From positions 124,001 through 188,000 of the forward strand of contig NZ_MDVX01000012.1 in assembly GCF_001719615.1 (NCBI RefSeq): 64,000 nt of DNA. Direction: 5' to 3'. The notes beneath the pieces are model-generated. The model ran no database searches and was not told the origin of the DNA. It saw nothing but the letters and a program-made list of their open reading frames with translations. The stretch's first letter is position 1; each line of letters starts with the position of its first letter. The stretch comes from Neptunicoccus sediminis (GTDB lineage Bacteria; Pseudomonadota; Alphaproteobacteria; Rhodobacterales; Rhodobacteraceae). This document shows positions 36,069 to 38,323 of the stretch, piece after piece. A program made the position numbers and the translations under genes.

Positions 36069-36095
36069 AAAACCCGGCGCGATGGCCGGGTTTTT
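36069..36095. terminator. Bidirectional terminator after the sat/APS kinase gene
   Basis: AACCCGGC/GCCGGGTT stem around CGCGAT, with T-rich tails on both strands. It lies 23 bases beyond the stop of the minus-strand sulfate-activation gene. Confidence 0.8.
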
Positions 36096-36117: not shown

Positions 36118-38187
36118 TCAGGCGGCGATCAGCCCCATGCTTTCGAGCTTCAGCAGAACCTGATGGGCGCAGTTGTCCACATCTGTGTTCTCTGTTTCGA
36201 TCCGCAGCTCGGGGTTTTCCGGAACGTCATAGGGGTCTGAAATCCCTGTAAATTCCTTGATCTTTCCTTCGCGGGCCAGCTTGTACAGACCTTTGCGGTC
36301 ACGGCGCTCGCATTCCTCGATAGAGGTGGCAACATGCACTTCGAGGAAGGCACCGAACTGTTCGATTTCCTCGCGAACCGCACGGCGGGTTGAGGCATAG
36401 GGCGCGATCGGCGCACAGATAGCGATACCACCGTTCTTAGTGATTTCGGAGGCCACGTAACCGATGCGGCGGATGTTGAGATCGCGGTGCTCTTTAGAGA
36501 AGCCCAGTTCCGAAGACAGGTTCTTGCGCACCAGATCGCCATCCAGCAGGGTTGTCGGACGACCACCCATTTCCATCAGTTTCACCATCAAAGCGTTGGC
36601 GATAGTGGATTTGCCGGAACCGGAGAAGCCGGTGAAGAACACGGTAAAGCCTTGCTGTGCCCGTGGTGGGCGTGTCCGGCGCAGCTCTTCCACCACAGCA
36701 GGGAAAGAGAACCACTCGGGGATTTCCAGACCTTCGGACAGACGGCGACGCAATTCTGTGCCGGAGATGTTCAGGATTGTCACGTCATCCTTATCCGCGA
36801 TTTCATCCGCAGGTTCGTATTGTGCGCGGTCCTGCACGTAAACCATGTGTTTGAAATCGACCATTTTGATGCCCATTTCTTCTTCATGGGTGCGGAAAAG
36901 GTCTTGTGCATCATAAGGACCGTAGAAATCCTCGCCCTGACTGTTGTTGCCGGGGCCTGCGTGGTCGCGGCCAACGATAAAGTGGGTGCAGCCGTGGTTT
37001 TTGCGGATAAGGCCATGCCAGACAGCCTCACGCGGGCCAGCCATGCGCATGGCAAGGTTCAGCAGCGACATGGAGGTTGTGGAGGCAGGGTATTGGTCCA
37101 GTACAGCTTCGTAGCAGCGCACGCGGGTGAAGTGGTCAATATCGCCCGGTTTTGTCAGGCCGACAACCGGATGGATCAGCAGGTTGGCCTGTGCTTCTTT
37201 TGCGGCGCGGAAGGTCAGTTCCTGATGGGCGCGGTGCAGCGGGTTACGTGTTTGGAACGCAACCACTTTGCGCCAGCCCATTTTGCGGAAATAGGCCCGC
37301 AATTCGTTCGGGGTGTTGCGACGGGCGCGGAAGTCATAGTGCATCGGTTGCTGGATGCCGATGATCGGGCCGCCAAGGTAGAATTCACCGGCAGTGTTGT
37401 GCAGGTAGTTCACGGCAGGGTGGGCCAGATCGTCCGCACCAAAGACTTTTTCAGCTTCGCGGGCTTTGTCCGGTGCCCAGTTGTCTGTCACAGACATCAC
37501 CGCCAGAATCACGCCTTCGGGGTCGCGCAGCGCGATGTCCTGACCGATTTCAACGGATTCAGCGAAGGACTTTGGCACGTCCAGTGTGATCGGCATTGGC
37601 CAGAGAGAACCGTCCGCCAGACGCATGTTTTCAACAACGCCCTCGTAATCTTCTTGCGACAGGAAACCCTTCAGCGGGTTGAAGCCGCCGTTCATCAGCA
37701 GTTCCAGATCGCAAACCTGACGGGCTGTCAGATCCCAAGACGGCAGTTGCGCCGCTTCGAATTTCATCTTTTCGGCACTGTCGTGAGAGACGTAAAGCTC
37801 CGAAATAGGGGCGAGATTGTTTTCCATCATTATAGTCCTGTGTTTAAGTGGAACCAGATTGGAGGTGGTTCCGGTCAATTCAGCATGCAGCGCGTCATAT
37901 TCCGCGAATTTACGTGCCAGAAATCTGTCGGTGAGCCGGATTTTCTCCGCCTCGCCCCGTGAGGTAAGCGTATAGGTGAACCGCTGGCGTTTATCCGGAC
38001 CGTTGCGGTCGCTGATCCTGACCAGCCGTGCATCGGTCGCAGATTTCAAAAGTGCGTTAAGGCGACCCAAGGACACCCCGATCCCAGCGGCAAGCGCGCG
38101 CTGCGAGACGTCGGAAGCACGATCAACCTGCCGGAGAAGCCGGAAGAGCTGATCTTCTTCATCACTATTGGGTTTTGCGCTTTGCAA
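36118..38187 (-). CDS. MarR-like regulator fused in frame to bifunctional sulfate adenylyltransferase/adenylylsulfate kinase
   Basis: One open frame of 689 codons. Residues 1-105 are a winged-helix domain like the MarR-type EPS-associated regulators (VSQRALAAGIGVSLGRLNALL, TYTLTSRGEAEKIRLTDRFLARKFAEYDALHAEL). From residue 120 comes a complete Sat (MENNLAPISELYVS, QTRNPLHRAHQELTFRAA, the substrate motif GRDHAGPG) joined to APS kinase (FTGFSGSGKSTIANAL, GISDPYD). Sat plus APS kinase makes APS and then PAPS. The only start for the long form is TTG at 38187, after an in-frame TGA. An internal ATG at 37830 (or 37827) has an AGGA motif 8 bases upstream and would give the usual protein of about 570 residues. 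Two proteins from one frame, or a true fusion, are both possible. Confidence 0.8.
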   Translation of the reverse strand: MQSAKPNSDEEDQLFRLLRQVDRASDVSQRALAAGIGVSLGRLNALLKSATDARLVRISDRNGPDKRQRFTYTLTSRGEAEKIRLTDRFLARKFAEYDALHAELTGTTSNLVPLKHRTIMMENNLAPISELYVSHDSAEKMKFEAAQLPSWDLTARQVCDLELLMNGGFNPLKGFLSQEDYEGVVENMRLADGSLWPMPITLDVPKSFAESVEIGQDIALRDPEGVILAVMSVTDNWAPDKAREAEKVFGADDLAHPAVNYLHNTAGEFYLGGPIIGIQQPMHYDFRARRNTPNELRAYFRKMGWRKVVAFQTRNPLHRAHQELTFRAAKEAQANLLIHPVVGLTKPGDIDHFTRVRCYEAVLDQYPASTTSMSLLNLAMRMAGPREAVWHGLIRKNHGCTHFIVGRDHAGPGNNSQGEDFYGPYDAQDLFRTHEEEMGIKMVDFKHMVYVQDRAQYEPADEIADKDDVTILNISGTELRRRLSEGLEIPEWFSFPAVVEELRRTRPPRAQQGFTVFFTGFSGSGKSTIANALMVKLMEMGGRPTTLLDGDLVRKNLSSELGFSKEHRDLNIRRIGYVASEITKNGGIAICAPIAPYASTRRAVREEIEQFGAFLEVHVATSIEECERRDRKGLYKLAREGKIKEFTGISDPYDVPENPELRIETENTDVDNCAHQVLLKLESMGLIAA

Positions 38188-38212
38188 TTTCCGTACCTGC
38201 GAATCAAAGTAT

Positions 38213-38226
38213 GTTCACGCGTGAAC
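38213..38226. promoter_or_regulatory. Perfect palindrome GTTCACGCGTGAAC upstream of the MarR-Sat frame
   Basis: A 14-bp perfect dyad centred 33 bases upstream of the TTG start. Its size and place fit an operator for a winged-helix dimer, possibly the MarR-like domain encoded just downstream. That link is an inference. Confidence 0.6.
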
Positions 38227-38323
38227 GCATCGCATAAATGGCGTTGCAGACAAAGTGTTTTTTGCAAGTGCGGGTGGATTAAGCGAAATGTGTCTCAGGT
38301 GTCACAGGGGAAACGGATGAGTT

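Follow-up and report, generated by a model that had tools for sequence, protein, structure and literature searches.

This analysis concerns a gene of Neptunicoccus sediminis in which a MarR-like winged-helix domain is joined to a bifunctional ATP sulfurylase and adenosine 5′-phosphosulfate (APS) kinase. The gene lies on the minus strand of a 64,000-nucleotide stretch (contig NZ_MDVX01000012.1, positions 124,001 to 188,000), which is referred to as the window. Its reading frame is open from stop to stop at 36118-38214, 698 codons without interruption, and the first ATG, GTG or TTG codon of this open frame is TTG 38187. A reading made from the DNA letters without database searches (the sequence-only reading) had noticed that the two parts share one frame, and this was borne out in the window and in relatives alike. 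The fusion, a palindrome in front of it and a start site inside it are conserved as sequences, and we consider it likely, with a probability of roughly 80%, that one mRNA gives rise to a self-repressing sulfate-activating enzyme (the long form) and to free enzyme (the short form). The full-length product and its N-terminal domain are:

36118..38187, minus strand: long form, MarR-like winged helix plus ATP sulfurylase plus APS kinase, 689 amino acids, TTG start, stop included
37873..38160, minus strand: MarR_EPS-like winged-helix domain, residues 10-105

The enzyme part matches the NCBIfam model NF004040 (PRK05537, bifunctional Sat/CysC) over residues 118-688 with 1038.9 bits and thus exceeds the threshold of 669 bits over both domains. 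It contains RNPLHRAH, GRDHAGPG and the P-loop GFSGSGKST (found by eye), which we take to be intact active-site motifs of ATP sulfurylase and APS kinase; their columns are invariant across 36 sequences with the exception of F521. Solved relatives of the same enzyme body, as judged by sequence, are 1i2d, 2gks and 3cr8, and among the 36 sequences matched in the PDB there is none whose best stretch extends into residues 1-117 of the fusion. The head had been likened to MarR-type regulators associated with exopolysaccharides (EPS). It does match the model for these stand-alone proteins, TIGR04176 (MarR_EPS), over residues 10-105, though with 75.2 bits for the whole protein and 79.4 bits for the domain alone against a curated cut-off of 88, and it is therefore treated as a relative of MarR_EPS and not as a member. 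The likeness resides in the winged helix: the head has a winged-helix DNA-binding fold, and its recognition helix (residues 39-44) contains S, G and N residues that are invariant in 29 sequences. A structure search by sequence with a profile of the MarR part returned no solved structure at an E value of 0.01. In the 3.86 Mb assembly of the organism itself, the fusion protein was matched once and no MarR_EPS match above the cut-off was found, the sole other match being weak (23 bits).

The fusion recurs in the family. In a sample of 394 genomes from 393 genera, some match to the fusion protein was present in 375, and at least 90 of the 394 carry the in-frame MarR-Sat fusion (in G032 the locus is cut by a contig end). 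In the genus sample, 5 of 33 genomes are fused; L032 and L033 are 98% and L034 and L035 88% identical to the gene in the window, and by eye the position of its TTG start is occupied by TTG in L032, L033 and L035 and by GTG in L034. Among the matches listed, from which the organism's own genome was possibly left out, the nearest relatives were a Rhodobacteraceae metagenome-assembled genome and an uncultured Amylibacter. When a stop codon between the two parts was sought in relatives, none was found: in each of the 94 fused loci, which come from 94 genomes, the MarR match lies in the Sat frame and the join is open, and the same frame holds the MarR match in 80/80 named loci (the best 80 of 207 found, with species partly repeated). 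Every count includes L156, whose MarR part and linker are divergent, as well as L142, which lacks the AGG codon discussed below. Outside the family the fusion was not encountered in a class sample of 385 genomes: 86 of these have a MarR match, and for the matches beyond the family the frames do not exceed 343 codons. None of the best 30 of 525 matched plasmid records covers the whole fusion; a copy on a Roseobacter litoralis plasmid is annotated as the short form, and inspection by eye revealed neither a clear MarR part nor a clear palindrome in it. For comparison, we used 41 unfused Sat-CysC loci, namely 21 of the genus and the 20 better-scoring ones of the family. No MarR match is present on the Sat strand in 40 of them. 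The exception, L176 from a draft genome, retains a broken remnant that lies some 160 bases ahead of the Sat start, lacks the N-terminus and changes frame; its palindrome is gone, while the internal AGGA and ATG are retained.

The region upstream of the long form contains the following elements:

38210..38229, no strand assigned: predicted operator, core GTTCACGCGTGAAC at 38213-38226, conserved palindrome GTTCA-N4-TGAAC
38226..38255, minus strand: presumed promoter with -35-like CTTTGTC at 38255-38249, TG at 38234-38233 and the -10 region running into the operator, assigned by eye from column conservation over 93 fused loci

The core is a perfect palindrome and the sole exact copy within the window. 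Exact GTTCA-N4-TGAAC lies upstream in 92 of the 94 fused loci, overlapping the presumed promoter; of the other two, L069 differs by a single mismatch and L110 breaks off at a contig edge. By contrast, within 300 bp upstream of the unfused genes the exact palindrome occurs in 0/41 loci, where the best site differs from it at one position in 2 loci, at two in another 2, at three in 20 and at four in 17. Aligned upstream regions of fused loci show a -35-like CTTTGCC, TG, and ATG(C/T) entering the palindrome. The long-form start, for which the first ATG in frame beyond the palindrome was taken and, failing that, GTG or TTG, lies a median of 19 bases after the palindrome (range 4-43), with 80 ATG, 8 GTG and 5 TTG starts. 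A second exact GTTC-N6-GAAC is located 25-49 bp further up in 19 of 93 loci; in 8 of these the distance is exactly 32 bp, which places it over the -35 element. L156 has two palindromes in front of its fused gene. No exact palindrome was found outside the start region in 616,601 bases of fused loci. A search for the extended 20-base site TGNGTTCANNNNTGAACNNA covered 60 of the 94 fused genomes; the site is present in 46, in 44 of these at the sat gene, and elsewhere in the 60 genomes at only three places (G257:C1:616269-616288, G370:C91:69303-69322 and G370:C188:1128-1147); the shorter core occurs eight times in the N. sediminis genome, once at the fusion gene. Judging from this conservation, the head of the fused enzyme would bind one site, located at the promoter of its own gene; its target appears to be essentially a single site per genome.

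Stand-alone MarR_EPS genes often have similar sites. Among 28 such loci, in which G116 and G252 were retained with a stop inside the match, the exact GTTCA-N4-TGAAC lies upstream in 5 and a looser form, of the same type as at the fusion, in 16. Their setting is different: polysaccharide genes are among the next genes in six of seven stand-alone loci checked, whereas the head of the fusion is joined to an enzyme. Moreover, GCGGTAG (often GTGCGGTAGCCGTG) stands within 200 bases before 23 of the 28 stand-alone genes versus 1 of the 94 fused loci; this leader element resembles the ops/JUMPStart element of RfaH-controlled operons. The stand-alone loci with GCGGTAG are L059, L178-L180, L182, L187, L203, L316-L318, L320, L322-L326 and L328-L334.

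Several other readings have to be weighed; the odds we assign to them overlap and need not sum to one. As conservation of a site does not reveal the sign of control, the long form could be an activator that, bound to the palindrome, recruits RNA polymerase. We regard this as improbable, because overlap of the palindrome with the presumed -10 region and transcription start suits blocking, and so does the second copy over the -35 element in 8 loci. Slightly less credit is due to the idea that another protein binds the palindrome and that the head serves otherwise, for example in oligomerisation or enzyme control. DNA binding by the head is something we infer, for a domain that scores below the curated cut-offs of MarR models, and this speaks for such a role; on the other hand, the palindrome tracks the head (92/94 versus 0/41), similar sites precede 16 of the 28 stand-alone relatives and the residues of the recognition helix are invariant.

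The second group of conserved elements lies inside the frame:

37836..37839, minus strand: internal Shine-Dalgarno-like AGGA, formed by the Arg codon AGG and the next base, AGGA in 92/94 fused loci
37825..37830, minus strand: internal start codons ATG ATG, with conservation of the second (37827-37825, residue 121)
36118..37827, minus strand: short form, ATP sulfurylase/APS kinase without head, 569 amino acids, within the NF004040 match at 118-688

The sequence-only reading had placed an internal AGGA-ATG start at 37830. Both ATG codons of the pair are indeed in the window, but the start conserved across relatives is the one at 37827. A start codon is present at the internal site in 94/94 fused loci: residue 121 is encoded by ATG in 87, GTG in 4 and TTG in 1, and in L106 and L149 an indel places ATG at the preceding codon. 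In nearly all cases AGGA is found 8 bases ahead of this start; 92 of 94 have it close by, L153 having AGGT and L142 CGGA in its place; among the named loci it is present in 80/80, with ATG as internal start in 71 and GTG in 9. Listed matches to unfused homologues mostly begin near residue 110-126, and for this reason AGGA and ATG could be relics from before the fusion, or be held by protein constraint, in a gene that makes the long form alone. We give this possibility about as little weight as that of a different palindrome-binding protein. With five other Arg codons available, AGG is retained, and it accounts for only 36 of 4906 Arg codons (0.7%) elsewhere in the same genes, despite a synonymous divergence (dS) of 0.67-2.66 in nine of ten chosen pairs. 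In the 92 loci free of indels at this point, the start column consists purely of ATG, GTG and TTG; the codon column immediately ahead of it contains 22 different codons. In L156, finally, AGGA is retained though it lies in a different frame. These observations support the view that an internal ribosome-binding site and start have been kept beyond the needs of the protein, and since they are also retained in L176, the short enzyme appears to be under selection too.

As to the MarR part, the ratio of non-synonymous to synonymous divergence (dN/dS) in the ten pairs is 0.07-0.38, always below 1 and never below that of the enzyme part. Together with the open frames this indicates selection on the long frame, with the MarR part under purifying selection. 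A gene producing the short enzyme alone, with the MarR frame as a leftover, is very improbable. The internal start conserved in 94/94 loci, the TTG with which the long form begins in the window and the presence of the head in no more than about one in four of the family genomes sampled would fit such a gene, but the MarR frame is open in every one of the 94 loci and selectively constrained, and in L176, where the head is broken, the palindrome has been lost as well. Lastly, the removal of a stop between two genes by a sequencing or assembly error is refuted by the counts, since an in-frame MarR part across relatives (94/94 fused and 80/80 named loci open) excludes a local base error.

A poorly resolved tree of fused and unfused genes shows them interleaved, with 23 changes of which only three are forced by well-supported branches. 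As the unfused genes in it were the 21 genus and 20 family loci (L157 was omitted as too short), these changes represent no census. Interleaving points to frequent gain or loss or to genes that have moved; for a decision between these alternatives the support in the tree is too weak. Across the tree the palindrome goes with the fusion, with only three well-supported independent comparisons (p 0.25).

Taken together, we favor a self-repressing enzyme accompanied by free enzyme. The long form would start at TTG 38187, and its MarR-like head would dimerise via its own long helix and the enzyme oligomer, occupy the -10 region by binding the palindrome at 38210-38229, and shut off transcription of its own gene. 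The second ribosome-binding site and start (37839-37825) on the same mRNA would yield head-less enzyme. The short form would then be the bulk enzyme and the long form the autorepressor. With an enzyme body common to both, mixed oligomers are likely to form, and because of these the ratio of long to short form would set the strength of self-repression. The sensor would probably be the enzyme domains, responding to APS, 3′-phosphoadenosine 5′-phosphosulfate (PAPS), ATP or the state of sulfate. The sequence-only reading had envisaged that the locus makes a DNA-binding enzyme, free enzyme or the two together, with PAPS synthesis tied to transcription control; comparison of sequences, that is the distribution of the palindrome and the conserved internal start, speaks for both proteins. 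A more elaborate version is a serious but tentative possibility: a one-gene feedback circuit in which the enzyme itself acts both as repressor and as sensor, with catalytic domains that bind APS/PAPS and a head that binds essentially one operator per genome, in which head-less subunits from the internal start join the oligomers and set the gain, and which evolved by capture of the autoregulator of an exopolysaccharide operon together with its operator.

Enzymes that carry a DNA-binding domain are not new as such. BirA and NadR are examples, and to our knowledge neither these nor PutA have a conserved internal start that yields a head-less enzyme. All three resemble the protein described here, which by sequence occupies one frame, in that enzyme and regulator form one polypeptide; they belong to pathways other than sulfate activation. 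For PutA, the fusion of an enzyme with a DNA-binding domain is described in PMC9132996. Genes with two N-terminal forms arising from internal starts are likewise covered in PMC11005335; they share with our case one mRNA with two starts, which here separate a regulator-enzyme from a plain enzyme. The accessible portions of the open-access papers found contain neither a report of a MarR-Sat/CysC fusion nor a description of the control of sulfate activation in Roseobacter-group bacteria, and those of PMC3305630 hold no passage on the fusion gene.

Past the stop codon, one further feature was assigned by eye, and the open reading frames that flank the gene resemble, also by eye, purine, small heat-shock, trxB and Lrp-type genes, without a separate polysaccharide-cluster setting:

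36073..36090, minus strand: probable terminator, inverted repeat followed by a T run

The genomic context offers a hint at the fate of the product. The N. sediminis genome contains a single PAPS_reduct match, a CysH-type reductase (L336:1378-2115) with CC and CxxC cysteines, which we take to be the APS-reductase pattern; the gene adjoins an apparent sulfite reductase gene (by eye). In addition, there are nine Sulfotransfer_3 matches above their cut-off and, among the matches listed, eight of Sulfotransfer_1 above theirs, partly at shared positions. Three neighbouring Sulfotransfer_3 matches, one of them below the cut-off, lie at G000:C70:85791-88567. Given the cysteines of the reductase and the sulfotransferase matches, PAPS may serve sulfation rather than reduction, and such a use would make a feedback switch at the branch plausible.

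The locus thus predicts self-regulation by the first enzyme of the sulfate activation pathway. As palindrome, recognition helix and internal start are each easy to mutate, the idea is directly testable, and it would concern many marine bacteria of the Roseobacter group, in which the sulfate-activating enzyme carries a predicted DNA-binding head.
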